From: Anaerotignum sp.
GTDB lineage: Bacteria > Bacillota > Clostridia > Lachnospirales > Anaerotignaceae
Direction: 5' to 3'
DNA length: 52,918 bases
NCBI RefSeq assembly: GCF_030625865.1
Contig: NZ_DAOUQB010000023.1
Coordinates: forward strand, 1-52,918
The notes below the pieces were generated by a model, which was not told where the DNA came from, ran no database searches, and saw nothing but the letters and a program-made list of their open reading frames with translations. Below, piece after piece: positions 39,386-52,918 of the stretch (its first letter is position 1; each line of letters opens with the position of its first letter). A program made the translations under genes and the position numbers.

Positions 39386-39616
39386 ATGAAAAAATTAAAT
39401 GAGGTAAAGAAAGGCGAAAAAGGCAAAATTTCATGCCTTCAGGGAGATTCCCGCTTTTTAAGCCGGATCACTTCTATTGGGCTCACGGTGGGAAGCGAGG
39501 TTGAAGTTATGCAAAATCAGAAAAAACAGCCAGTTTTGGTTTATGGAAGAGATACCATGATTGCGGTTAACCGAGATGAATGCGAAAAAATTATTATGGA
39601 GGTATCTACAAAATGA
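39386..39616 (+). CDS. feoA: Ferrous iron transport protein FeoA
   Basis: A 76-residue SH3-like protein that assists FeoB. It has the expected RITSIGLTVGSEVEVMQ segment and a C-terminal VYGRDTMIAVNRDECEKI. TAAGGAGG precedes the ATG. The stop overlaps the FeoB start (ATGA). Confidence 0.93.
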   Translation: MKKLNEVKKGEKGKISCLQGDSRFLSRITSIGLTVGSEVEVMQNQKKQPVLVYGRDTMIAVNRDECEKIIMEVSTK

Positions 39617-41652
39617 GTGATACAACAATAGCGTTGCTGGGACAGCCAAACTCAGGAAAATCAACATTATTTAATGGCCTTACCGGTTCTCGTCAGCATG
39701 TGGGAAATTGGCCGGGTAAAACTGTTGAAAAAAAAGAAGGCGCTTTTCACTACAACGGAATAAACTATGCTGTTGTAGATTTGCCGGGTACATATAGTCT
39801 TTCTGCCAATTCCGAGGAGGAAGTTGTTACGAGAGATTACATAGCAGGGAATAAGGCTGATTTGATTTGTATTCTTGCAGATGCCTCACAGCTAGAGCGG
39901 AGTTTGTTTATGCTGGCGGATTACACAGGTATCAATAAGCCTGTGGTATTGCTTCTCAACATGATGGATGTAGCGATTCAGCAGGGTAAAACCATTGATA
40001 GTCAAGCTATTTCAAAAAAACTTGGAATTCCAGTGATACCTATTACGGCTTTAAATCGAAAAGGTTATGAAGAATTCTACAAAATTATTGAAACCTCACA
40101 AAAATCAAATTCCACACTCAAAGAGAAAGAACTAACAGATATTTTCTTTGAAGTGATTGGTGAGCCGTTTAAGCAGTTGTTAAAGCTGTTGCCGAAGGAT
40201 GGCATAGGTGCGTTTTCCTCCTCGTGGTTGGCAGCAAAGTTACTGGAACAGGATAATCATGCAATGCAGCTTGTAAAATCCAAGGTTGATGTAAGCTGTT
40301 GGAGAGAGGTTGAAACTGTACTCTCCAGTGTGAAAAACGGTAATTTATTCACAGCAGACTGTAAATTTAAGTGGATAGAAAGTTTACTTAAGAATAGTGT
40401 AAAAAAAGCAGCAAATAAGCAAGGCAGGATGAATCGCTTCGATCGTATAGCCACAAGCAGGATTTGGGGAAAGCCCCTTGCAGTGGGAATCATTATATTA
40501 GGGCTCATTTTGTCCATGGTGATTGCGATTCCCATCATGGGGGTATTCCAGAAAATATCTCAAATTGCTACTGTGCAGCTTTCGACTGCGTTGGTTGCCG
40601 TTGGTGTCCCGAAAGTGGTAATTTCGCTGCTCTGCTATGGTATATTGACTGCGGTTACTTTTGCCTTAATGATGGTGAGTTTTGTGTTTGGCATCAGTCT
40701 AGTGTTTGGATTTATAGAAGAAATAGGTTATATGGCTCGTATTTCTTATGTATTTGATAGCACCATGTCTAAACTTGGACTACAGGGAAAGGCAATTATG
40801 CCTTTCTTAGTAAGCTTTGGTTGTAATATTGGCGGTGTGAGCGGAAGCAGGGTGATTGATTCTTGGGGACAGAGAGTAACTACGATAGCGCTTTCATGGG
40901 TTGTTCCATGTGCTGCCACATGGAGCGTTGTTGGGCTTGTGAGTACCGTTTTTTTTGGGAGTCATGCTTTATTGGTTGTGCTTTCCCTATTTGTAGTGGC
41001 CTCATTGCACATGGCAATTACTTCAAGACTATTCGGCAAACACTTAATTAAAGAAAGTGACAGAATTGGACTGATTATGGAGTTACCACCATATCACAAG
41101 CCACAATACAGAAATTTATTCCGGTTTGTTTTTATGCGTATGGGAGATGTACTGAAGCGTGCACTTAAGACCATTATTTTCGTAGCAGTTATATTCTGGG
41201 CTTTATCCTATACGTCAGACGGTAATGTAGCAAATAGTGTGATTTATAAGATTGGAACCTTTATCGAACCAGTGACCATGTGGTTTGGATTACGTTGGCA
41301 GACCTTTATGGCATTTTTATCCGCCGCTATGGGGAAAGAAGCGGCTCTTGGTGTATTGGCTGCGTTGTTTAATTCTCAGGGGCAGGCTGCTGGCATATGG
41401 GATGTTATTTCCAAGCAGGCGGAGGTAAGCACATCTGGTCTTGGCAACGCTATGCTTACTGATATTTCCAAGGCAGAAGCCTTAGCGTTTATTTATGCAT
41501 TTTTCTTTAATGTGCCTTGTCTAATGGCTGTCGTAACTACGCTACAGGAAACCCATTCACTAAAATGGACATTACGCATAGCAGGATATTACATGGGGGT
41601 TGCCTTACTGATGTCGGCTATTGCATATCATGTTGGACTTTTGATCTTTTAA
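39613..41652 (+). CDS. feoB: Ferrous iron transporter FeoB
   Basis: A 679-residue membrane GTPase for Fe(II) uptake. The G domain has G1 GQPNSGKST, G3 DLPGTYSL and a G4-type NMMD. A helical linker follows, and then the membrane part with two gate-like regions (including MPFLVSFGCNIGGVSGSRVI) and C-terminal helices (AALFNSQ, MLTDISKAEALAF, FFFNVPCLMAVVT). The ATG at 39613 overlaps the feoA stop. The earlier ATG at 39580 is inside feoA and rejected. Confidence 0.95.
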   Translation: MSDTTIALLGQPNSGKSTLFNGLTGSRQHVGNWPGKTVEKKEGAFHYNGINYAVVDLPGTYSLSANSEEEVVTRDYIAGNKADLICILADASQLERSLFMLADYTGINKPVVLLLNMMDVAIQQGKTIDSQAISKKLGIPVIPITALNRKGYEEFYKIIETSQKSNSTLKEKELTDIFFEVIGEPFKQLLKLLPKDGIGAFSSSWLAAKLLEQDNHAMQLVKSKVDVSCWREVETVLSSVKNGNLFTADCKFKWIESLLKNSVKKAANKQGRMNRFDRIATSRIWGKPLAVGIIILGLILSMVIAIPIMGVFQKISQIATVQLSTALVAVGVPKVVISLLCYGILTAVTFALMMVSFVFGISLVFGFIEEIGYMARISYVFDSTMSKLGLQGKAIMPFLVSFGCNIGGVSGSRVIDSWGQRVTTIALSWVVPCAATWSVVGLVSTVFFGSHALLVVLSLFVVASLHMAITSRLFGKHLIKESDRIGLIMELPPYHKPQYRNLFRFVFMRMGDVLKRALKTIIFVAVIFWALSYTSDGNVANSVIYKIGTFIEPVTMWFGLRWQTFMAFLSAAMGKEAALGVLAALFNSQGQAAGIWDVISKQAEVSTSGLGNAMLTDISKAEALAFIYAFFFNVPCLMAVVTTLQETHSLKWTLRIAGYYMGVALLMSAIAYHVGLLIF

Positions 41653-41663
41653 GGGGATGGACT

Positions 41664-41897
41664 ATGCTAAATGAAATTTTAGACCAATTTAAAAAAGGAA
41701 GAACATTTTCTTTTCAGGAGCTTGCGGACAGTTTAAATACGGATGTCCAAACTGTTAAGGCGCAAATAGATTATCTGGAAAGACAGGGTTATATAAAGAA
41801 AGTCGAGGTTTATACGAGTTGTGCTGGTGGATGCAGTAGCTGCGCAGGTTGTAATCAAGGGACACAGAGATCAATCATCTGGGAACTGTCTCAATAG
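41664..41897 (+). CDS. FeoC-like winged-helix protein with Cys cluster
   Basis: A 77-residue protein. The winged helix (FSFQELADSLNTDVQTVKAQIDYLERQGYIKKV) is followed by CAGGCSSCAGC, four cysteines able to bind a metal or iron-sulfur centre as in FeoC. The ATG at 41664 follows AAGGGG, 11 bases after the feoB stop. A larger frame starting inside feoB is a chance extension. It probably senses iron or oxygen state for FeoB or for transcription. Confidence 0.85.
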   Translation: MLNEILDQFKKGRTFSFQELADSLNTDVQTVKAQIDYLERQGYIKKVEVYTSCAGGCSSCAGCNQGTQRSIIWELSQ

Positions 41898-41949
41898 TTA
41901 TATAAGGATAATTAATTTAATAAGAGTGGATAAGAAATGGAGGGAAACT

Positions 41950-42972
41950 ATGACGCATTGTTCGCATGTAGACGCAAGCGTAAAAAAGCTGCTTGATATG
42001 ATTTATGCCCCAATGTATACGAAAACACTGTTTACGGCTATCGAGCTGGAACTTTTTTCGGAGCTTGAAGAGGGGAAAGTGTTTACGGAAGTAGCTGAAA
42101 AGCGAATGCTACATCCGGAAAATACGAGATTACTTCTCAATGCATTAACAGGTATGGAGCTTCTGGAAAAGAATGAGGGTCGTTATAGCAATACGGCATT
42201 GGCAAATAAATATCTTTTAAGAAAATCAGAGTGGTTTATTGGAGATCATCTTAGGGTGTATCACGCTGGTACCGGTTTTGATGAAATTGATATGGTTAAG
42301 CTGATAAAGGAAGGTCCCGGCGGTGAAGCTGAAGGAAAAGAGGGATTAGAGGCGTATGCCATATTTGGGGATTGGGCTGAAATGATGAAGACGCAGCAAA
42401 GGGGTGGAAGAGCCAAGGAAATTTCGGATATGGTTTCTGGGCTTTCGGAATTTAAGGGCTTTCAAAAAATGCTGGATCTTGGAGGAGGCCCGGGATTAAT
42501 CTCATTGGCTATTGTTAAACGTCATCCTGAACTTACGGCTATTATTTTTGATACGGCCGAGGTTGGCAGGGTTGCGGAGGAGTCGATAAAGGAAAATAAC
42601 CTTGAAAGCCGTGTTGAGGTAATGACGGGAGATTACCTAAAGGATTCCATTGGCGAGGGTTATGATTTTATTCTTGCCATAGGAACCCTAAATTTTGCAA
42701 AGCACAACCTAGACATGGTGGTTAAGAAAATATATGATGCACTAAACCCTTATGGCGTATTTATGTGCATTTCAGAGGGCTTAACCGATGAGGAAACCAG
42801 CCCCAAGGAGATGGTGGTTTCATGGTTGCCAAGCGTTTTGAGGGGCTTTGACTTTCAATTGAACCAGGGAGAGGTTAGTGATGCCATGCTTAGAAATGGA
42901 TTTAGAAATGTTTTTAAGCAGACGGTCAGTATGCTCACTGGGGACATGGACGTGGATATTGCAAGAAAATAG
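41950..42972 (+). CDS. SAM-dependent O-methyltransferase-like enzyme
   Basis: A 340-residue enzyme. The N-terminal winged-helix dimerisation domain (MIYAPMYTKTLFTAIELELF, ENTRLLLNALTGMELLEK) is followed by a Rossmann methyltransferase with motif I LDLGGGPGLISL and AIIFDTAEV. This fold is used by plant-type and polyketide O-methyltransferases and by tetrapyrrole and antibiotic methylases. The ATG at 41950 follows AGGGAAAC. It lies between feoC and two ABC half-transporters. A substrate, perhaps a small metal ligand, cannot be named from sequence. Confidence 0.87.
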   Translation: MTHCSHVDASVKKLLDMIYAPMYTKTLFTAIELELFSELEEGKVFTEVAEKRMLHPENTRLLLNALTGMELLEKNEGRYSNTALANKYLLRKSEWFIGDHLRVYHAGTGFDEIDMVKLIKEGPGGEAEGKEGLEAYAIFGDWAEMMKTQQRGGRAKEISDMVSGLSEFKGFQKMLDLGGGPGLISLAIVKRHPELTAIIFDTAEVGRVAEESIKENNLESRVEVMTGDYLKDSIGEGYDFILAIGTLNFAKHNLDMVVKKIYDALNPYGVFMCISEGLTDEETSPKEMVVSWLPSVLRGFDFQLNQGEVSDAMLRNGFRNVFKQTVSMLTGDMDVDIARK

Positions 42973-42986
42973 GAGGAATGCAAAAT

Positions 42987-44792
42987 ATGTCAAAAAAGAA
43001 AAAGAAATTCATATTAAAAAGATTTACACCTTATATGGGTAAGAAGAAAATTCTTTTGCCTTTTGCCTTGATTTTATCAGGATTATCGGCAGTACTTAAT
43101 ATCGTTCCCTTTGTATTGGTATGGTATATTACACGGGATATTTTGTCAAATTCCCAGTCCGCTAATTTATCAAGCATCGGGTTTTATGCGTGGCTTGCAT
43201 TTGGTAGTGCTGTAGGAGGCATCTTAGTATATTTTCTTTCCCTTATGTGTTCTCATTTGGCAGCCTTTCGTGTGGAAATTGGCATGCAGAAGCTTGGAGT
43301 GAAAAAGATTCTTTCAATGCCATTGGGTTTTTTTGATCAACATTCCAGCGGGAAAATCCGTAAAATTGTCAATGATGGCGCAGCAACGACACATAGTTTT
43401 TTGGCTCATCAGCTTCCTGATATGGCAGGAAGTGTTGTTTCGCCAATCATTCTAATTGTTTTGATTTTTACTGTTGATTGGAGAATGGGCGTAGCTTCTC
43501 TGGTACCGATTGTATTGGGTTTTATAACCATGCGGTTTATGATGAGTGCAGAAGGGAAAAATTTTCAGAAAATGTATTTTGATTCTTTGGAGGAAATGAG
43601 CTCTGAATCAGTAGAATACATCCGTGGCATTCCTGTGGTAAAAACCTTTGGGCAAAGCATTTTCTCGTTCAAGCGTTTTTATGACAGCATTATCAAATAT
43701 AAGGAGATGGTTCATGCATATACATTGCTTTGGCAAAAGCCAATGTCGTTTTACAGTACAATTATGCAGTCGGCAGCATTCTTTTTAATTCCAATGGCTA
43801 TTTTTTTAATAGGAAGAGGAGAAAATCTAGCGCTTGTCATTGCAGATTTTGTTTTTTATATTCTTATATCACCAATTTTCACTATGCTTTTAATGAAATC
43901 TATGCACTTTCAGCAAAACACCATGATTGCTGAGCAGGCAATCGACAGGCTGGATCAGCTTCTAGACTACCCTGCCATGAGTAATACAGAAAACAAAATC
44001 AGCATAAAAAATCATAATTTGGAGTTTAAAAATGTGGTTTTCTCCTATGCAGGCAGTGATAAGCCTGCCGTGGAAAAAATCAGTTTTAAATTAAAGGAAG
44101 GAGAAACCATAGCCCTCGTTGGAGCTTCGGGGGGTGGAAAAACTACGATTGCTAGGCTGGCAGCTAGGTTTTGGGATGTTGATGAAGGGGAAGTATTAGT
44201 TGGAGGCGTAAACGTAAAGGAAATTCCCAAAAAAGAGCTGATGGACAGCATTTCCTTAGTATTCCAAAACACCAAACTATTTAAAGATTCTTTAAAAGAA
44301 AACATTATATTTGGAAAAGAAAATGTTACAAAGGAAGAACTTGACAAAGCCATTGATTTTTCGCAGTCAAGAGAGATTATTGAAAACCTTTCAGCTGGAA
44401 TTGATACAATTATAGGTTCTAAAGGGATCTATCTTTCTGGTGGGGAGCAGCAAAGAATAGCCATTGCAAGAGCAATTGTAAAGAATGCTCCTATTGTGTT
44501 ACTAGATGAAGCCACTGCTTTTGCAGATCCGGAGAATGAGCATTTAATTCAAAAGGCTTTAAAGGAACTCAGTCGAGGAAAAACCACCCTTATGATTGCA
44601 CATCGTCTTACAACAGTGCAAAATGTGGATCGAATTTTGGTCATTCAAGAAGGAAAAATTGCGGAAGAGGGAAGTCACAAGGAATTGTTGAAGCGGGGAG
44701 GTATTTACAAAGCAATGTGGGAGGAATACCAAAAATCCGTAGATTGGAAAATAAAGGATAACGATGCAGCGATAGGAGGTCAATATGCTTAA
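42987..44792 (+). CDS. ABC transporter, permease-ATPase half 1
   Basis: A 601-residue protein with six N-terminal membrane helices and a C-terminal ATPase carrying Walker A GASGGGKTT, signature LSGGEQQRIAIARA, Walker B IVLLDEATAFADPE and H-loop IAHRL. The next gene encodes a second half, so a heterodimer is expected. The pair resembles YbtPQ/IrtAB-type metallophore transporters and drug exporters about equally. Starting ATG 42987 is 10 bases from AGGAGG, and the ATG at 42978 is too close to it. Confidence 0.9.
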   Translation: MSKKKKKFILKRFTPYMGKKKILLPFALILSGLSAVLNIVPFVLVWYITRDILSNSQSANLSSIGFYAWLAFGSAVGGILVYFLSLMCSHLAAFRVEIGMQKLGVKKILSMPLGFFDQHSSGKIRKIVNDGAATTHSFLAHQLPDMAGSVVSPIILIVLIFTVDWRMGVASLVPIVLGFITMRFMMSAEGKNFQKMYFDSLEEMSSESVEYIRGIPVVKTFGQSIFSFKRFYDSIIKYKEMVHAYTLLWQKPMSFYSTIMQSAAFFLIPMAIFLIGRGENLALVIADFVFYILISPIFTMLLMKSMHFQQNTMIAEQAIDRLDQLLDYPAMSNTENKISIKNHNLEFKNVVFSYAGSDKPAVEKISFKLKEGETIALVGASGGGKTTIARLAARFWDVDEGEVLVGGVNVKEIPKKELMDSISLVFQNTKLFKDSLKENIIFGKENVTKEELDKAIDFSQSREIIENLSAGIDTIIGSKGIYLSGGEQQRIAIARAIVKNAPIVLLDEATAFADPENEHLIQKALKELSRGKTTLMIAHRLTTVQNVDRILVIQEGKIAEEGSHKELLKRGGIYKAMWEEYQKSVDWKIKDNDAAIGGQYA

Positions 44793-46518
44793 GTATTTTC
44801 AAAATAAATATGCTTTATCGGAAAAAGGAGCAAAGGATCTTTTTCATGCTATCATCTGGACAATAATTTTGGATATCAGCTTTATGGCTCCGGTTGTTAT
44901 AGGCTTTAAATTTTTGGATGAATATATGGGTAAGCTATTGAATTCATCCAGTGCAACGCAAAGAAACATCCCCTACTATGCAGTTATGTCTTTAATATTC
45001 TTCGTCGTCATGTTGGTGATTGGCTATTTTCAATATGATTCGACTTATACGAAGATTTACGAAGAAAGTGCCAAAAGAAGAATTAGTTTGGCTGAAACGC
45101 TAAGAAGGTTACCATTGGCTTTTTTCGGCAAAAAAGATATTGCCGATTTGAGCGCAACGATCATGGAGGATGCAACCCAGATCGAAATGCTCTTTTCCCA
45201 TTCGGTACCTCAGATTTATGCAGCATCAGTAACTGTTTTTATTATGGGCGTGATGATGTTTTTTTATAATTGGCAGTTGTCCATTGCGGTTTTCTGGGTA
45301 GTCCCAGTTGCAGCCTTTATTTTTATCTTAACAAAGTCACTTCAAAAAAATATGCATGTAAAGCTATACGATATAAAAAGGGATATTTCAGAAAAAATCC
45401 AAGAGGGGCTTGACTCAGCCCATGAAATAAAATCCTACAACAGAGAAGAATCTTTTTCAAATGATTTAAATACTCAGCTTGATGCTCTTGAAAAATTTAT
45501 GATTAAAGGGGAGCTTTTAATCGGCGCATTTATTAATCTGTCCTATGTCTTTTTAAAGCTTGGGCTGCCCAGTGTAATCCTGTACGGTGCATATCTTCTG
45601 ACAAAAGGGGATATCGGGATATTTACTTATTTGGTATTTCTTATTGTAACAGCCCGCATTTATAATCCTATCATGGAGGCAATGGAAAATTTTGCACTGC
45701 TCCTATTTTTAAATGTGCGGATTAATCGCATGAAAGAGATGGATAAAATGCCAAGACAGGATGGAAGAGATATATTTAGTCCAAAGAATTATGATATAGA
45801 ATTTAAAAAAGTTGATTTTTCTTATCAGGATGGTAAGCAAATTTTAAATGATGTCAGCTTTACGGCGAGGCAGGGGGATGTAACAGCACTTGTAGGACCC
45901 TCAGGTGGCGGAAAGAGCACGATAGCAAAGTTGGCTGCAAGATTTTGGGATATTGATAATGGCTCAATAACCTTAGGTGGAGAAGATATTTCACAGGTTG
46001 ATCCGGAGACACTTTTGCAGCATTATTCTATTGTCTTTCAGGATGTTACACTGTTTAACTCAAGTATTCTGGATAACATTCGTCTGGGAAAGAAGGATGC
46101 TACTGACGCGGAAGTCATTCGGGCAGCAAAGCTTGCTCGATGCCATGAATTTGTCAGTAAACTGCCCCAGGGATATAAAACCTTAATTGGCGAGAATGGA
46201 GAAAAATTATCTGGTGGTGAAAGACAGCGTATCTCTATCGCAAGAGCGATTCTAAAGGATGCTCCTATTATTCTTCTGGATGAGGCAACAGCATCTCTTG
46301 ATGCAGAAAATGAGAGAAAAATTCAAAGTGCCCTTGGAGAGCTTGTGAAAAACAAGACGGTTTTGATTATTGCCCATCGTATGAGAACGGTGTTAGGCGC
46401 TGATAAAATTGTTGTAATCAAAGACGGTGCGATTGGAGAAACTGGTACACCATTAGAATTAAAGGAAAAACAAGGGGTATTCTCATCCATGTTAAAAACA
46501 CAATATCAAAATAGTTAG
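44785..46518 (+). CDS. ABC transporter, permease-ATPase half 2
   Basis: A 577-residue protein with six membrane helices, then Walker A GPSGGGKST, signature LSGGERQRISIARA, Walker B IILLDEATASLDAE and H-loop IAHRM. Its start overlaps the end of the preceding half by 8 bases, which favours equal synthesis of both. Both sites keep full catalytic motifs. The direction of transport (import or export) is not decidable from the motifs alone. Confidence 0.92.
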   Translation: MLKYFQNKYALSEKGAKDLFHAIIWTIILDISFMAPVVIGFKFLDEYMGKLLNSSSATQRNIPYYAVMSLIFFVVMLVIGYFQYDSTYTKIYEESAKRRISLAETLRRLPLAFFGKKDIADLSATIMEDATQIEMLFSHSVPQIYAASVTVFIMGVMMFFYNWQLSIAVFWVVPVAAFIFILTKSLQKNMHVKLYDIKRDISEKIQEGLDSAHEIKSYNREESFSNDLNTQLDALEKFMIKGELLIGAFINLSYVFLKLGLPSVILYGAYLLTKGDIGIFTYLVFLIVTARIYNPIMEAMENFALLLFLNVRINRMKEMDKMPRQDGRDIFSPKNYDIEFKKVDFSYQDGKQILNDVSFTARQGDVTALVGPSGGGKSTIAKLAARFWDIDNGSITLGGEDISQVDPETLLQHYSIVFQDVTLFNSSILDNIRLGKKDATDAEVIRAAKLARCHEFVSKLPQGYKTLIGENGEKLSGGERQRISIARAILKDAPIILLDEATASLDAENERKIQSALGELVKNKTVLIIAHRMRTVLGADKIVVIKDGAIGETGTPLELKEKQGVFSSMLKTQYQNS

Positions 46519-47114: not shown

Positions 47115-47792
47115 TTATTTTTGAAGTAAATCAATAAGAGCGTTTTCATCCAAAATAATAATTTTATCTTTATTTATTTCAATTATATTGTCATTACAAA
47201 GCTTTTTAAGTTCTCGATATAATGATGGTCGGGATACGTTTAAGTATTCTGCCCATGTTTTTTTTGTAAAAGATAAATGAATGATTGAATTGTCAGCTGT
47301 TTTTATTTCGTGAATTAAAAAATAGGCTATTTTCGTTTTAATTGATGAGTATGAAAAAAGTTCGAGCCTTTTTTCGTAATAGATAATTCTATTTGCAAAA
47401 GCATTTAATATGTTCTCTGCAATCAAAGCTTCCTTGCACATTTCAAAGATACTTTGCTTAGGGAAAAAAAGAATCTTACTGTTGGTTCTTGAAAATACAT
47501 CACAAGGGTATGTGGTTTCGGTTGAAAAAACAACAGCACCGCCGAATAAATCCCCTTTGTTTTTATGAAAGATACAAATTAAATTTCCCGACGCAAGTAA
47601 CTTCTGTATTTCTATGCTGCCCAAAATGATAATTCCGACATTTTTCGAAAACTGATCTTCTCGGCAGATAAATTCGTTTTTTCCGTATTCCTTGATATGA
47701 TAGCGAGTTCTTGATAAAACAAGTCGTATTTGGGCTTTATCTAAACCTCTAAATATAATGCATTTATATAAAACTTCAATGATATCGTCCAT
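47115..47792 (-). CDS. Crp/Fnr-family regulator 1
   Basis: A 225-residue protein. The N-terminal cyclic-nucleotide-type beta-barrel (about 10-120) is followed by the long dimer helix and a winged helix with recognition segment TWAEYLNVSRPSLYRELKKL. There is no N-terminal Cys cluster as in FNR, so the effector may be a small molecule or heme. It is divergent from the importer operon. The ATG at 47792 is preceded by AGAGGGG. It is a paralogue of the regulator at 50913-51602. Confidence 0.92.
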   Translation of the reverse strand: MDDIIEVLYKCIIFRGLDKAQIRLVLSRTRYHIKEYGKNEFICREDQFSKNVGIIILGSIEIQKLLASGNLICIFHKNKGDLFGGAVVFSTETTYPCDVFSRTNSKILFFPKQSIFEMCKEALIAENILNAFANRIIYYEKRLELFSYSSIKTKIAYFLIHEIKTADNSIIHLSFTKKTWAEYLNVSRPSLYRELKKLCNDNIIEINKDKIIILDENALIDLLQK

Positions 47793-47815: not shown

Positions 47816-47833
47816 GTGTATCCACAGATACAC
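47816..47833. promoter_or_regulatory. Operator GTATC-N4-GATAC (copy 1)
   Basis: An 18-bp perfect inverted repeat, GTGTATC-CACA-GATACAC, lies between the Crp/Fnr gene and the importer operon. The 5-4-5 core has the geometry of CRP/FNR sites but an unusual half-site. It ends 22 bases before TACTAT (47854-47859), a likely -10 box, which would put its centre near -41.5. An alternative -10, TATATA (47857), would move this by 3 bases. Confidence 0.75.
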
Positions 47834-47914
47834 CGTTTTGGTTAGCCATGACTTACTATATAAATGTATCACAACTGAAAATGCATGTCAAAATCAATTA
47901 GGAGGAACCAAATT

Positions 47915-48919
47915 ATGAAAAAATCAATTCCATTAATGATTGTATTGATTATCAGCCTGATTACGGGTTGTGGTCAATCCAATTCAAAGGTAACAAGTAA
48001 TGGTAGTCCCCAAAACGCTGAATTAAAAGTGCAAACAACAATAACGGTGGTAGCTCCGAAATCGCCTGCAACAATTCCTATTTTAAGGATGATTGAAGGT
48101 AATTGCATGGGAGATAAAATTAAAATAGATCTTCAGCTTTACAGTGATATGGAAACTATGATGGCTATGGCTTCTGAAGGTGACTATGGAATTTTAATTG
48201 TCCCTGCGCATACAGCTGCTAATCTCAACAATAAGGGTGTTGATGTAAAACTGCTCAACGTATTTAACTGGGGTGGAATGTGTTTAAGTACAACGGACTC
48301 CGACTGTAATAGCTGGGAAGATCTAGCTGGTAAGGAGTTATATGTTCCTTCAAAAGGCTCAGTACCTGAAATATTAACTCAATATTTCTTAAAACAAAAT
48401 GGACTTGCAGTGGGTGAAAATATTGAAGTTGTATATTCTTCTCATAATGAAATAGCACAACTGTTATCAGTGGGGACCATAAAGTACGCTGTTGATGCGC
48501 AGCCATTTGTTACTTCGAATACGAATAATGTACTAGGCTACAAAGTCATATCGGAATTTTCTGAGGAATGGAGGCTTACACAGGGAGAAGAGTATAGTAT
48601 GCCTGCCAATTGTATGGTTTCAAGTAACGAATACTTAAGCAAAAACGAGGAACTTATAAATAGCTTTAATAAAAAATTCTCAGAAGCAGTTGAGTGGACA
48701 GTAGAAAACCCAGCTGAGGCAGGTGCTTTGGCGAGCGCTAATTTAAATGCTAATGCGGAACTGATTGCGGAGGCTATGCAGGGTTTCGGTTTTGATTATC
48801 AATCAGCTGTGGATTCTCAAAAGGATTTAGAACAATATTATAATGTTTTGTTGGAGATGAAACCGGAAAGTATCGGAGGGACAATTCCTAATAAAGAATT
48901 TTATCATTTACAAAAGTAA
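47915..48919 (+). CDS. Lipoprotein substrate-binding protein of an SsuA/TauA-type importer
   Basis: A 334-residue exported binding protein with lipobox LITGC (Cys about 20). The body (TITVVAPKSPATIPILRMIEG, YGILIVPAHTAANL, DLAGKELYVPSKGSVPEILTQYFLKQNG, AVDAQPF) is of the type that captures sulfonates, nitrate or pyrimidine precursors (COG0715). The ATG at 47915 follows AGGAGG. Specificity is unknown, and its setting among Crp/Fnr, Fur and Feo genes suggests a metal-related or redox-related compound. Confidence 0.87.
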   Translation: MKKSIPLMIVLIISLITGCGQSNSKVTSNGSPQNAELKVQTTITVVAPKSPATIPILRMIEGNCMGDKIKIDLQLYSDMETMMAMASEGDYGILIVPAHTAANLNNKGVDVKLLNVFNWGGMCLSTTDSDCNSWEDLAGKELYVPSKGSVPEILTQYFLKQNGLAVGENIEVVYSSHNEIAQLLSVGTIKYAVDAQPFVTSNTNNVLGYKVISEFSEEWRLTQGEEYSMPANCMVSSNEYLSKNEELINSFNKKFSEAVEWTVENPAEAGALASANLNANAELIAEAMQGFGFDYQSAVDSQKDLEQYYNVLLEMKPESIGGTIPNKEFYHLQK

Positions 48920-48957
48920 GATTAAGATGGTAAAAGATGCATCCTTCTGCGTAATAA

Positions 48958-49140
48958 AAGGCAACGAATAGTACGTTTTTATCCCAGAATAAAGAATTTG
49001 CAAAAAGTTTTATAGAAGAATTCAAAAAAACAGTCAATTGGATGGTCAATAATACAGAGGATGCTGGAAAACTTGCCGAGAAACACCTAAATGCTGATGA
49101 TGTTCTTTACAGACTTGAGATGATAGGAGGAAAATACCAG
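48958..49140 (+). pseudogene. C-terminal remnant of a second substrate-binding protein
   Basis: In frame with the permease and with no stop, this stretch reads SQNKEFAKSFIEEFKKTVNW and then NTEDAGKLAEKHLNADDV. It aligns with the KNEELINSFNKKFSEAVEW...NPAEAGALASANLNANAEL part of the intact binding protein upstream. The rest of the second copy is missing. It is a decayed tandem paralogue, and the ATG at 49042 in it is not a gene start. Confidence 0.75.
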
Positions 49141-49950
49141 ATGAAAGCTTTTATCACAAAGATGAATCGTGTTTTTAAAAATAAAAAATTATATAATAGG
49201 TGGTCATCCAGCGTAGGGATCATTATCATTTCTCTAATAATCTTGTTGCTTTGGCAAGGACTGTCATCTATCTATACGCCGTTAGTACTCCCCAGCCCCT
49301 TTTTGACTGCTAAATCTCTATTGAAAATATTACAAAGCAAGTGCTTTTTTATAGAACTGTTTTCTACCCTTCAGAGACTTCTGATCGGACTAATCGCATC
49401 AATATTAATTGGAAGCATATTCGGAATTATGATGGGTTGTAGCAAAAAAATAAAGCATTTACTTGAACCCCTTGTTTATCTTGTTCAGGCAACTCCGCCT
49501 ATATTGTATATGACACTAGCCATGCTTTGGTTTGGCTTGAACGGGAGAGCGACAATTTTTATTGTATTTATTGGGAGTGCGCCGGTTATGGCTGTCAATA
49601 TTGCGGAGGGATTTGAAAACATTGATGTGAAACTAATTGAAATGGGAAAAGCCTTTCAGTTTTCCAGAACAAAAATGATTCTGGAAATTATCATTCCGTC
49701 ATTAAAGGCATACTTTAAGACCGGTTTGATAACAGTATTTAGCTTTGGATGGAAGCTTGTTGTCATGGGTGAGGTTTTAAGTGCAAGCACTGGGCTTGGA
49801 GCACAGATTACAGATGCCAGAATGAACCTAGAAACAAACATGGTATTTGCATGGGGTATCATTGTTATTTTACTTTGCTTTCTCTTTCAAAAAATCACTG
49901 CAAAGTTGTTTGAATTTAGATTAAAACGGAGAAAAAATTATGAGGGATAA
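49141..49950 (+). CDS. ABC importer permease (SsuC/TauC type)
   Basis: A 269-residue membrane protein with six helices. The cytoplasmic coupling loop reads EMGKAFQFSRTKMILEIIIPS, the EAA motif, and it is preceded by AEGFENIDVKLI as in SsuC/TauC. The ATG at 49141 follows AGGAGG with 10 bases spacing. Upstream in-frame sequence is the binding-protein remnant. It overlaps the start of the ATPase gene by 11 bases. Confidence 0.92.
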   Translation: MKAFITKMNRVFKNKKLYNRWSSSVGIIIISLIILLLWQGLSSIYTPLVLPSPFLTAKSLLKILQSKCFFIELFSTLQRLLIGLIASILIGSIFGIMMGCSKKIKHLLEPLVYLVQATPPILYMTLAMLWFGLNGRATIFIVFIGSAPVMAVNIAEGFENIDVKLIEMGKAFQFSRTKMILEIIIPSLKAYFKTGLITVFSFGWKLVVMGEVLSASTGLGAQITDARMNLETNMVFAWGIIVILLCFLFQKITAKLFEFRLKRRKNYEG

Positions 49951-50665
49951 AGTATTATTAAAAATTTTGAACATTGAAAAGAACTTTGAAGAAGTTAGGG
50001 TACTGCATGATTTTTCTATGGAAGCAAATCGGGAAGAAATTGTATGTATTATAGGACCTTCAGGTTGTGGAAAGTCTACCATGCTGAATATTATTTCGGG
50101 GCTAACTTTGCCCTCCTGCGGTGAAGTAATCAATAATAGTCAAAATACGAGCTATGTTTTTCAGGAAGACAGACTTTTACCTTGGAAGGATGTATATGAA
50201 AATATTAGGATAGTAAATGATAAGAGTTCACACAAAACCTGTATGGAACTAATTGAAAAGGTAGGTTTAAAAGGGTTTGAAGGTTTTTTTTCATGCGAGT
50301 TAAGTGGTGGAATGAGGCAGAGGTGTTCTATCGCAAGAGCATTTAACTATGAAGCTGATTTACTGCTTATGGATGAACCCTTTAAATCCCTTGATTTTAA
50401 CTTGAGGATCGGAATGATTCACTATCTGCTTACACTTTGGGAAAGCAAGAAGAAAACGATTATATTTGTAACGCATGAGATTGACGAAGCGCTTTTGCTT
50501 GGAGATAGGATACTTTTTTTAACAAACAGGCCAACGAAAGTTTTGACAGAATTTCGTATTGAAACACCTAAGATGAAAAGAAGCTTAACTGACCCTTCGT
50601 TAGTTAAAGTTAGAAATCAAATTCTTGACTTGCTGCAAAATGAAAATCAGCCAGTTGATAGTTAA
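49940..50665 (+). CDS. ABC importer ATP-binding protein (SsuB/TauB type)
   Basis: A 241-residue ATPase with Walker A GPSGCGKST, Q-loop VFQEDRLLPWKDVYENI, signature LSGGMRQRCSIARA, Walker B LLLMDEPFKSLD and H-loop VTHEIDEALLL. The DRLLPW segment is typical of nitrate/sulfonate/taurine importers. It completes the importer with the binding protein and permease. A terminator follows closely. Confidence 0.94.
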   Translation: MRDKVLLKILNIEKNFEEVRVLHDFSMEANREEIVCIIGPSGCGKSTMLNIISGLTLPSCGEVINNSQNTSYVFQEDRLLPWKDVYENIRIVNDKSSHKTCMELIEKVGLKGFEGFFSCELSGGMRQRCSIARAFNYEADLLLMDEPFKSLDFNLRIGMIHYLLTLWESKKKTIIFVTHEIDEALLLGDRILFLTNRPTKVLTEFRIETPKMKRSLTDPSLVKVRNQILDLLQNENQPVDS

Positions 50666-50669
50666 TAAA

Positions 50670-50718
50670 AAACAAGGCGGGAACCATACCATAATTATGA
50701 GTTTCTGTCTTGTTTTTT
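50670..50718 (+). terminator. Intrinsic terminator of the importer operon
   Basis: AAACAAGGCGGGAAC (50670-50684) pairs with GTTTCTGTCTTGTTT (50701-50715, with G-U pairs) and is followed by TTT. Confidence 0.85.
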
Positions 50719-50739
50719 CGTATAGGAAATTAATTAGTC

Positions 50740-50890
50740 AAACCCTTGAGGGGTTTGCCCTCAAACACCCACGAGGTTTTCACCCTTGACCCATTATAAA
50801 ACCGCATGAATATGCGGTTTAAACAAAAAGTTTTTGGTCTTGCTTTTTATAAAAAGCAAGTGGGTTTGGGCGGCGCCCAAGGTTTCTCGA
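50740..50890. repeat. Cluster of four short hairpins (intergenic repeat-like element)
   Basis: In 150 bases there are four hairpins: TTGAGGG/CCCTCAA (50746-50764), AAACCGCAT/ATGCGGTTT (50799-50820), CTTGCTTTTT/AAAAAGCAAG (50839-50860) and TTGGGC/GCCCAA (50866-50880). Base composition is higher in GC than the flanks. It resembles the extragenic palindromic repeats scattered in many Clostridia, but no second copy is in this window. Confidence 0.6.
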
Positions 50891-50912
50891 CAGCCACTTT
50901 GTTCAATTTATT

Positions 50913-51602
50913 TTACAGTGAAACTATTTTACTTAATCGATTAATATCCATTACCTCTATTGTTCTATTTTGAAAAGATAATATACCTTCAACTTCAAGT
51001 TTTCGCAACTCTCTGGATAAAGAGGTTCTTGAAACATCCATATATTCCGCCCAGGCTTTTTTTGAGAAAGGAAGTAAAACGATATTTGTATTGTTGGGTT
51101 CGTTTTCATACTGAAGGTAATGAACCAAATATCCGGCAATCTTTTCTTGGATGGAATCTAAAGACAATATACCGATTTTATGTTTCAACATCAGCATTGA
51201 ATTTGAAGTTAATTCGAGAAAATTAAGCATGAATTGGTTATCAAGGGTAAAAAGCTTAAGCAAATCGGTTTTTAAAATAAATAAAATTTTTGTGGGCTTG
51301 CATACACAGGCGTTATCAGGATAAAAACTGTATTTTGAGAAAATGCATTCTCCAATTACTTCACAAGCTTTCTTTCTCTCTATAATAACCATTTTGCCAT
51401 TTGGAAAAATCTTTTGCACATCAACACTGCCCGATAGCAAAATTCCGATTTTGTCGGCAATTTGAACAGGTGAAAAAATAATATCATTTTCAGCAAAGCT
51501 TTCTACCCTATAACTGATTTCTGATAGCAGAGCTTCAATTTCATCAATGCTTTTATTCTGAAACAAGGTGCATTTTTGAAGTACAGATAATTTATGCTTC
51601 AT
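50913..51602 (-). CDS. Crp/Fnr-family regulator 2
   Basis: A 229-residue paralogue of the regulator at 47115. It has an N-terminal beta-barrel, a dimer helix, and a helix-turn-helix AWAEYMDVSRTSLSRELRKL whose recognition part (SRTSLSREL) is almost the same as SRPSLYREL in copy 1. That predicts closely similar DNA targets. It is divergent from fur. The start ATG at 51602 is preceded by AAGGAG. No FNR-type N-terminal Cys cluster is seen. Confidence 0.92.
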   Translation of the reverse strand: MKHKLSVLQKCTLFQNKSIDEIEALLSEISYRVESFAENDIIFSPVQIADKIGILLSGSVDVQKIFPNGKMVIIERKKACEVIGECIFSKYSFYPDNACVCKPTKILFILKTDLLKLFTLDNQFMLNFLELTSNSMLMLKHKIGILSLDSIQEKIAGYLVHYLQYENEPNNTNIVLLPFSKKAWAEYMDVSRTSLSRELRKLEVEGILSFQNRTIEVMDINRLSKIVSL

Positions 51603-51632
51603 TCTATTCTCCTTAAAAAAACTTAATAATAT

Positions 51633-51646
51633 GTATCTTGAGATAC
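51633..51646. promoter_or_regulatory. Operator GTATC-N4-GATAC (copy 2)
   Basis: GTATCTTGAGATAC has the same arms as copy 1, and flanking bases T before and C two positions after also match. It lies in the Crp/Fnr 2-fur divergent region. It ends 22 bases before the TATAAT of fur, the same distance as in copy 1. On the other strand it falls within the likely promoter (TATTAT, 51626-51631) of the regulator itself. Confidence 0.72.
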
Positions 51647-51668
51647 GCTTTTTGCGATTTTATTATAC

Positions 51669-51702
51669 TATAATACAAATGGAATGTAAATGATAATCAT
51701 TT
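51669..51702 (+). promoter_or_regulatory. fur promoter with Fur-box-like site
   Basis: -10 TATAAT at 51669-51674 has a poor -35, which fits an activator-dependent promoter. AAATGAT-A-ATCATTT (51688-51702), a perfect 7-1-7 inverted repeat of the TGATAATNATTATCA type, lies just past the predicted start, where Fur would repress its own gene. Confidence 0.7.
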
Positions 51703-51749
51703 TTAAAATGAAGCGCAAACGTATTTCATGGTTTGGAGGTGATAATGCT

Positions 51750-52199
51750 TTGAACATCGACACAATAGATTTTGAGAAAATGCTTCATACCTGCGGATAT
51801 AAGATGACAGTACAGCGACAGGCAATACTGGATATTATTCGGGAAGAAAAGAAGAGGCATTTATGCACGGAAGAAATATATGATGAGGTTAAAAAAGCTT
51901 ATCCCGGAATAGGGCTTGCCACAGTTTACCGTACCCTGCAGCTGTTTGAAAAGCTTGGAATTGTACATCACATATTACTGGATGATGGTTGCATGCGATT
52001 TCAGATTATGGATTCAAAGGAAAAGCACCAACACCATCATCTTGTTTGTGATATTTGCGGCGAAGTAATTGATGTGGAGGAGGATATGCTGGGAACGTTG
52101 GAAGAGAAGCTATTAACGGAAAAAGGCTTCACTGTAAAAGACCATAAGGTTCAATTCTTTGGAATATGTAAAAAATGCGCTAACGAGCAAAATCAATAA
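51750..52199 (+). CDS. Fur-family metalloregulator, TTG start
   Basis: A 149-residue protein. The winged helix (YKMTVQRQAILDII, IGLATVYRTLQLFEKLGIV) is followed by the metal-binding domain with KHQHHHLVCDICGEVIDVEE and the second CKKC pair, i.e. the four-Cys structural zinc site. I place the start at TTG 51750, 9 bases from GGAGGT. The ATG at 51690 lacks a ribosome site and lies inside the Fur box. Fur is more likely than PerR or Zur because of the feo genes nearby, but this is not certain. The next gene is 17 bases on. Confidence 0.88.
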   Translation: MNIDTIDFEKMLHTCGYKMTVQRQAILDIIREEKKRHLCTEEIYDEVKKAYPGIGLATVYRTLQLFEKLGIVHHILLDDGCMRFQIMDSKEKHQHHHLVCDICGEVIDVEEDMLGTLEEKLLTEKGFTVKDHKVQFFGICKKCANEQNQ

Positions 52200-52216: not shown

Positions 52217-52918
52217 ATGTACAGTATTGGAATTGATATTGGATATTCATCCGTTAAGGTTATCTTGACGGATGAAACAAATAAAATTAGGTTCAGCAGA
52301 TACCAAATGCATAAGGGAAGGATTAAGAGTAATCTATTAAAAATTCTGAAAGAAATGACGGCTGTTTTTGATCCACGGGAAATTGTATTCGGCGCCGTAA
52401 CAGGCAGTGGAACCAAATTTTTAAGTGCAGACAGTAAAATCAAGGCTGTCAATGACGTAACAGCTGTGATCGAAGGTGCAATGGCTGAAAATGTAAGCGT
52501 AGGCTCAATCATTGACATTGGGGGCGAAAGTGCACGGTTTATTACCGGATTGAGTGAGAAAGATAAATCGCGTATCGAAATCTCCATGAATTCTAATTGC
52601 TCTTCGGGAACAGGGTCTTTTCTTGAGGAACAGATGTCCAGGCTGAATTTAAAGCTAACTGATTATACGGAGCTGGCAAAGGAAGCAAAGTCTATTCCCA
52701 GAATTGCAGGGCGTTGCAGTGTATTTGCCAAAACGGATATCACCCATCATCAGCAAGAGGGCGTACCCGCTGCGGATATCTTGTTGGGCTTGGCTTATGC
52801 CCTTGTCAGAAACTATAAGGGTACGGTGATGAAAAAGCTTCCCGTGAAAAAACCCATTCTTTTTTCCGGCGGTGTTGCCTATAACGGAGCAATTCTTACT
52901 GCATTAAAGGATGTATTG
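52217..52918 (+). CDS. BcrAD/BadFG/HgdC-family ATPase activase, 5' part only
   Basis: The open frame runs off the window end after 234 codons. It begins SIGIDIGYSSVKVIL (ASKHA phosphate-1 motif) and has SIIDIGGESARFI (phosphate 2). It also has NCSSGTGSFLEEQ and GRCSVFAKTDITHHQQEG, whose cysteines bind the [4Fe-4S] cluster shared by the dimer, followed by LFSGGVAYN. Such proteins deliver an electron to 2-hydroxyacyl-CoA dehydratases or benzoyl-CoA reductases, and long variants of unknown role exist. AGGAGG precedes the ATG. It probably shares a transcript with fur. Confidence 0.88.
   Translation, partial: MYSIGIDIGYSSVKVILTDETNKIRFSRYQMHKGRIKSNLLKILKEMTAVFDPREIVFGAVTGSGTKFLSADSKIKAVNDVTAVIEGAMAENVSVGSIIDIGGESARFITGLSEKDKSRIEISMNSNCSSGTGSFLEEQMSRLNLKLTDYTELAKEAKSIPRIAGRCSVFAKTDITHHQQEGVPAADILLGLAYALVRNYKGTVMKKLPVKKPILFSGGVAYNGAILTALKDVL

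Follow-up and report, generated by a model that had tools for sequence, protein, structure and literature searches.

A shared GTATC-N4-GATAC operator probably links two HcpR2-like Crp/Fnr paralogues to an importer operon and to fur in Anaerotignum

In class II activation by CRP and FNR, the regulator's site is centred at −41.5 and is accompanied by a poor −35 element. HcpR2 is a Crp/Fnr regulator of hcp and frdX in anaerobes; in the passages on this family in Rodionov et al. (2005; PMC1274295), its operator is given as GTAACnnnnGTTAC, positions 180 and 181 of HcpR proteins correlate with operator bases 3 and 6, and the HcpR2 proteins of Clostridium thermocellum and C. difficile are assigned another motif, which may be GTATC. 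For Clostridium acetobutylicum, flavodoxin, iron uptake and benzoyl-CoA reductase genes are cited under Fur-mediated iron control in the relevant passages of another paper (PMC6311696), and those passages do not mention a Crp/Fnr operator at −41.5 of such promoters. The present work concerns 52,918 nucleotides (nt) of DNA from Anaerotignum sp. (Clostridia; assembly GCF_030625865.1, contig NZ_DAOUQB010000023.1, positions 1 to 52,918), referred to as the window, in which the palindrome GTATC-N4-GATAC stands beside each of two Crp/Fnr regulator genes, R1 and R2. It appears likely, taking all the parts together, that this palindrome is the operator of an HcpR2-like clade, that the clade acts by class II activation with Fur as a second key and by autorepression, and that R1 and R2 share one regulon.

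Towards the end of the window, R1 and operator 1 are followed by an importer operon (47915-50665), then by R2 and operator 2, and last by fur and a BadF/BcrA-type gene of which the start is present:

47115-47792, minus strand: R1, Crp/Fnr regulator of 225 amino acids (Pfam HTH_Crp_2 2e-12, cNMP_binding 1.4e-11), R1-type subclade of the GTATC clade
47818-47831 (full palindrome 47816-47833): operator 1, GTATC-CACA-GATAC, 25 nt 5′ of the R1 start codon
47854-47859, plus strand: probable importer operon −10, TACTAT; predicted +1 at 47866, operator centre −41.5; aligned hexamer TATTAT at locus L205
47877-47895, plus strand: weak Fur-like sequence of the importer promoter, 12/19; shuffle p 0.21, not significant
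47915-48919, plus strand: importer substrate-binding protein (NMT1/SsuA-like); orthologues at 46-49% identity have the same operator
49141-49950 (likely true start, read by eye), plus strand: importer permease (BPD_transp_1 7e-23 for the open frame 49042-49950)
49940-50665, plus strand: importer ATPase (ABC_tran 3e-28)
50913-51602, minus strand: R2, Crp/Fnr regulator of 229 amino acids (Pfam HTH_Crp_2 1e-11, cNMP_binding 1e-9), R2-type subclade
51633-51646: operator 2, GTATC-TTGA-GATAC, 30 nt 5′ of the R2 start codon
51669-51674, plus strand: predicted fur operon −10, TATAAT; predicted +1 at 51681, operator centre −41.5; relatives have the same layout
51686-51704, plus strand: Fur box GTAAATGATAATCATTTTT, 15/19 to the Fur consensus, at predicted +6 to +24; 0/500 shuffles as good
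51750-52199, plus strand: fur, 149 amino acids from TTG (start read by eye; FUR 4e-36; ggagg at 51735)
52217-52918, plus strand, cut by the contig end: BadF/BadG/BcrA/BcrD-type protein

An initial annotation of this DNA had placed the palindrome, with identical arms, next to each Crp/Fnr gene and 22 bp before a −10 element facing the other way. Both sites are exact, their 5-bp arms are the same, and the distance from operator end to −10 is exactly 22 bp in each, which centres the sites at −41.5 relative to the predicted starts. The outer arms are unequal: operator 1 is a 7-bp palindrome, GTGTATC/GATACAC, and operator 2 is one of 5 bp only. The −35 position of the fur promoter, CGCTTT, matches TTGACA poorly, which fits a promoter that depends on an activator. 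Position and weak −35 thus resemble the class II promoters of CRP and FNR, and activation here is predicted from that resemblance; the half-site, in contrast, is neither TGTGA nor TTGAT. The annotation had left two choices for the importer −10, and TACTAT is probably the right one, because the aligned hexamer at L205 is TATTAT at 23 bp and four importer orthologues have TATAAT at 22 bp.

The exact palindrome occurs twice in the window against 0.01 expected, a count reached in 0/100 shuffles, and there is no third exact copy elsewhere in the window. With up to two mismatches there are 18 matches against 11.8 expected, and 5/100 shuffles reach 18; within the window, the exact form alone clearly stands out, and mismatched forms do not. 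The genome-wide scan that the annotation had proposed as a check, made on the 2.75-Mb genome, returned four places (two for the reversed control pattern) rather than many random copies. The two outside the window lie inside open reading frames; by their sequence alone, L001 resembles a dihydroorotate dehydrogenase electron-transfer subunit and L002 a cold-shock protein. Only the window sites combine the palindrome with a TANNNT box at 21-23 bp, and the control gives none. A large regulon in this genome was considered and rejected: a 42-base pattern made of the operator, 22 bp and TANNAT had 338 strand matches when up to three mismatches were allowed, and its control had 299; the window sites had no mismatches and the next best, among the matches listed, had two.

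Conservation beside orthologous regulators was assessed in relatives chosen by protein similarity alone, an alignment of 12 regulators leading to 32 loci in named genomes, three of which were dropped as C-terminal matches only. Among the 29 loci scored, the exact palindrome is present in 20, no more than 200 nt 5′ of the regulator match, and a version with one mismatch in three; the remainder of the same loci holds seven exact copies in 288,406 bp. A search for the best −10-like hexamer at 18-26 bp in the 20 loci placed it 22 bp from the operator in 15 and 23 bp from it in five; it matches TATAAT at five or six positions in 17 and at only four in the others (L198, L206, L207). The nearest relative is Anaerotignum sp. 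MB30-C6, with an R2 75% identical, and the others come from strains and metagenome-assembled genomes (MAGs) filed as Tissierellales, Vallitaleaceae, Alkaliphilus, Propionispora and Acetoanaerobium, and from two spirochaete MAGs.

Both regulators exceed the Pfam cut-offs for a cNMP-binding-type domain and HTH_Crp_2, which places them in the Crp/Fnr superfamily, and both score far below the NCBIfam equivalog for CRP, the cAMP receptor (25.4 and 17.3 bits against 266 required). An AlphaFold2 model of R2 (predicted local distance difference test 88.7, predicted template modelling score 0.74) informs on the fold only. The paralogues are 31% identical, and their recognition helices, VSRPSLYREL in R1 and VSRTSLSREL in R2, are as similar as first noted. 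Sixty-four rows of the family alignment have a clean site: 25 GTATC, 22 GTTGN, eight GTTAC, six GTAAC and three others. In a quick tree built without the helix columns, all 25 GTATC users fall in one clade of 43 rows (Shimodaira-Hasegawa-like approximate likelihood ratio support 98), within which the R1-type part is supported at 96 and the R2-type part at 84. Sister classes have palindromes of their own (GTAAC, GTTAC, GTTGC/T/A, TTAAC), of the same size and at the same 22 bp. Residue 179 and the half-site share 1.71 bits of information, compared with 0.43 in shuffles (65 pairs, of which one, TTAAA, is probably chance); a one-residue recognition code was nevertheless rejected as proven, with two to three independent pairs on the tree and 31/60 S179 rows without a clean site.

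The likeness of this clade to HcpR2 lies in several features, a nearness that the annotation had missed. The window regulators are Crp/Fnr proteins that, by eye, lack an FNR-type cysteine cluster; their operator is a 5-4-5 palindrome; and its half-site is one base (base 6) from GTAAC, so that it is less unusual than first described, the annotation having rightly set it apart from CRP and FNR sites. In addition, 4/4 GTAAC sister loci examined have a ferredoxin-like gene opposite, which is comparable to HcpR2. At CRP position 181, where proline is the HcpR2 trait, R1 has Pro and R2 has Thr. In contrast to HcpR2, the window sites read GTATC, so the operator GTAAC-N4-GTTAC is absent there; the predicted targets of the clade are an importer, fur, BadF/BcrA-type proteins and flavodoxin rather than hcp and frdX, and many of its promoters carry Fur boxes. 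Neither hcp nor frdX is a divergent neighbour in the window, those places being taken by the importer and by fur with the BadF/BcrA-type gene. The tree held no named HcpR2 protein, and we infer that the GTATC clade is HcpR2-like. The clade has very few of the cysteines that are frequent in its sister clades: at R2 position 118 they occur in 2/39 rows versus 66/88 in sisters, and at position 28 in 1/39 versus 45/88, whereas Cys11 is commoner (31/39 versus 21/88). These differences are a hint that the sensed signal may have changed relative to the sisters. Position 49 of R2 is also among the cysteines common in sister clades and nearly absent here.

From these sequences we infer binding, activation, autorepression and cross-control along the following lines. 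R1 and R2 would both belong to the clade whose operator is GTATC-N4-GATAC, and a regulator bound at −41.5 would activate the divergent operon in class II fashion: the importer on one side and, on the other, fur with the BadF/BcrA-type gene and, probably, two more genes, for a methyltransferase and a DtxR-like protein. With iron plentiful, Fur at about +6 to +24 would repress the fur operon, and many other promoters of the clade likewise, so that such a promoter would need two keys, Fur off and regulator on. An operator just 5′ of each regulator gene would probably mediate autorepression, and a shared operator would probably make one regulon of both promoters.

The case for one regulon comes from relatives with a single type of regulator. 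Hits at E 1e-20 include an R1-type but no R2-type regulator in genome G211, and the reverse in G140; for some searches the hits come from scoring part of the first-look candidates. The G211 importer has one operator in front of it, and a second, about 30 kb away, precedes a BadF/BcrA-type gene that adjoins the R1-type regulator. G140 has operators before the importer and before an ATP-binding cassette (ABC) operon that looks like an iron-siderophore importer; its R2 stands at the far end of the importer operon, which runs towards it, and R2's own site with fur, which has one mismatch, stands before BadF/BcrA-type DNA. Promoter DNA much like that of the window importer precedes a BadF/BcrA-type gene at L205, and at L192 and L196 a BadF/BcrA-type gene is followed by an importer-like ATPase. 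Because of these arrangements, the targets of R1 and R2 belong together, and because G211 and G140 place the operator before both the importer and the BadF/BcrA-type operon, the two window promoters probably form one regulon. Flavodoxin genes stand behind the operator elsewhere: G217 has the operator, with TATAAT at 22 bp, before a gene named flavodoxin-like from its sequence, and L190 has it before a Pfam flavodoxin.

Each regulator might instead serve only its own neighbour, R1 the importer and R2 the fur operon, with an ancestral operator and a specificity set by expression or signal rather than by DNA. The age of each subclade, many members of which lie beside their own site, and the low identity of R1 and R2 agree with this, but the identical 5-bp arms of the window operators, the operator before both operon types in G211 and G140, and the distance of the importer operator from the regulator in both genomes (some 30 kb, or the far end of an operon) speak against it and leave it rather unlikely. 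The annotation had suggested that two related regulators control the importer and fur; the shared operator and shared targets are upheld by G211 and G140, and in this organism R1 and R2 would both bind both window sites, given the common operator and the similar helices.

The importer itself adds evidence on how the site acts. Its binding protein has 58 matches in 54/392 genomes, of which 30 loci were examined. In the window copy and in all four close orthologues (46-49% identity; G140, G131, G205, G211), the exact operator stands 94-117 nt 5′ of the start and is followed at 22 bp by a −10, TATAAT in the orthologues, whereas 0/25 distant homologues examined (identity up to 34%) have the exact operator. 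In G131 and G205, an R1-type regulator without a site at its own gene adjoins the other end of the operator-bearing importer, and a spirochaete MAG (L206) repeats the window order of regulator, operator (23 bp to TACACT) and importer. Across 127 Crp/Fnr homologues, the distance from a perfect palindrome to a TATAAT-like box peaks at 22 bp (51 pairs), with a second class at 17 bp (38 pairs) that is probably the repeat TATACTATAAT. On the other side, 12-35 nt separate the end of the operator from the start codon of the regulator in 23/25 GTATC cases, and a −10-like hexamer on the regulator strand precedes the operator by 15 nt (10/25) or 20 nt (14/25), with similar peaks in sister classes; the layout is suggestive of a two-way promoter whose operator falls just within the transcript of the regulator, and hence of autorepression. 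Such a roadblock would also suit a site that is mainly repressive, acting on the divergent operons or on the regulator genes alone, but the constant 22 bp to the divergent −10 is class II activator spacing, and it is kept at the importer promoters of four relatives with no Crp/Fnr-like reading frame found 5′ of the operator in the DNA examined there, which makes a mainly repressive role quite improbable. That an unrelated protein binds the palindrome, or that it forms an RNA hairpin, is highly improbable: any dimeric repressor could use a 5-4-5 palindrome, but the site is concentrated immediately 5′ of Crp/Fnr genes, and sister Crp/Fnr classes have other palindromes of that size (GTAAC, GTTAC, GTTGN, TTAAC) at 22 bp.

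Fur boxes that overlap the predicted starts, and the place of fur at the head of a longer operon, had escaped the annotation. With a box defined by at least 14/19 matches to the Fur consensus, no more than 70 nt after the −10, 15/25 GTATC promoters have one versus 1/39 sister-regulator promoters (one of 65 being dropped as too short), the single sister case lying near a FeoB-like gene with operator TTAAC (L090). At the orthologue importers, three of four boxes score 17-18 of 19 (the same sequence in two) and the fourth 13/19. In the window the ATG at 51690, which opens the longest fur frame, falls within the box. With a Fur box beyond the start and an activator site before it, the fur operon therefore likely has a two-key promoter, and the importer may have one. 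The window protein exceeds the Pfam FUR cut-off and reaches 154 bits with the NCBIfam model of Bacillus-type Fur, under the cut-off of 220. The likely rest of the BadF/BcrA-type gene is on contig C53 of the same genome (G000), over a 506-bp overlap that is 96.6% identical; there it is followed by a gene like an S-adenosylmethionine-dependent methyltransferase and then a DtxR-like gene, as in G026. Thus fur is probably the first gene of a longer operon that probably includes both. The window gene is cut, and its G026 orthologue has BadF/BcrA ATPase, DUF2229 and HGD-D parts all over cut-off, an architecture that we take to be linked to double-cubane cluster proteins.

Several observations weigh against this interpretation. 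The importer promoter of the window (12/19) and the flavodoxin-like promoter of G217 have no significant Fur box; six of the 29 regulator relatives are without the palindrome; and 14 of the clade's 39 rows lack a clean GTATC site with −10 by the rule used. VSRTSLSREL, the helix of R2, also occurs in three GTTAC-clade regulators that have no clean GTATC site, and the operator is therefore not set by the helix alone. Operator plus −10 has 39 strand matches in ten genomes, and the reversed control has 13; one repeated sequence, presumably ribosomal RNA, accounts for 10 of the 13 matches in G177. The pattern by itself is therefore unspecific.

Other observations concern the surroundings. Five further Crp-like proteins found by profile in this genome (on C84, C12, C79, C72, a fragment, and C66) have different helices, and two of them have clean sites, which read GTTGT and GTTGC; the profile did not detect the weaker family hits (C54, C61, C53, C29). 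The region before R1 (39580-46518) holds a gene that by eye is FeoB-like, together with an O-methyltransferase gene and two ABC exporter genes, and the L206 module is also near a FeoB-like gene, which again points to iron. In G020, of the same genus, the only R1-type match (C9:39531-39635, L049) is 35 residues long and 71% identical and lies behind genes for an ABC exporter and a methyltransferase; the module of R1 and importer has thus probably been lost there. The importer parts fall below the NCBIfam cut-offs for Sao, SsuABC, TauABC and Nrt among the matches listed (ATPase: best 25 of 190). The start of the permease frame at 49042 resembles, by eye, the end of a second binding protein (48960-49140); a gene for such a protein has apparently decayed at this place, between those of the binding protein and the permease. 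Two distant importer homologues (L258 in G284, L259 in G022) have GTTGC-N4-GCAAC 22 bp before a −10-like hexamer, L259 also with a Crp-like gene, as if this importer type had switched to another Crp/Fnr operator. Regulators at L200 (GTATC operator), L151 and L169 (GTTAC operators) stand opposite ArsP_1-type permeases, an arrangement that L195 and L198 resemble. At L252:5582 (G140:C70), a GTATC operator, TACAAT at 22 bp and a Fur box of 15/19 precede an uncharacterised reading frame.

The clostridial genes cited under Fur resemble those behind GTATC operators here; the operator at −41.5 is what sets the latter apart from the cited passages. In the parts of the literature covered, on GTATC with Crp/Fnr or the recognition helix (RegPrecise lying outside that scope), and on double-cubane proteins, the BadF/BcrA family or enzyme activase with Fur, no report of this regulon was found. 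A wider proposal stands at about even: the clade would be the positive half of a two-key iron-stress circuit comprising the BadF/BcrA-type reductase, the importer, iron transporters and fur, and the window paralogues would feed two different signals into one operator. The operator would tie uncharacterised genes of anaerobes into one regulon, among them a NitT/TauT-like importer, a BadF/BcrA-DUF2229-HGD-D protein and an ArsM-like methyltransferase, and it indicates where iron control by Fur and sensor control by Crp/Fnr proteins may meet. The 22-bp geometry, in turn, lets candidate operators of many unstudied Crp/Fnr proteins be read from the DNA 5′ of their own genes.

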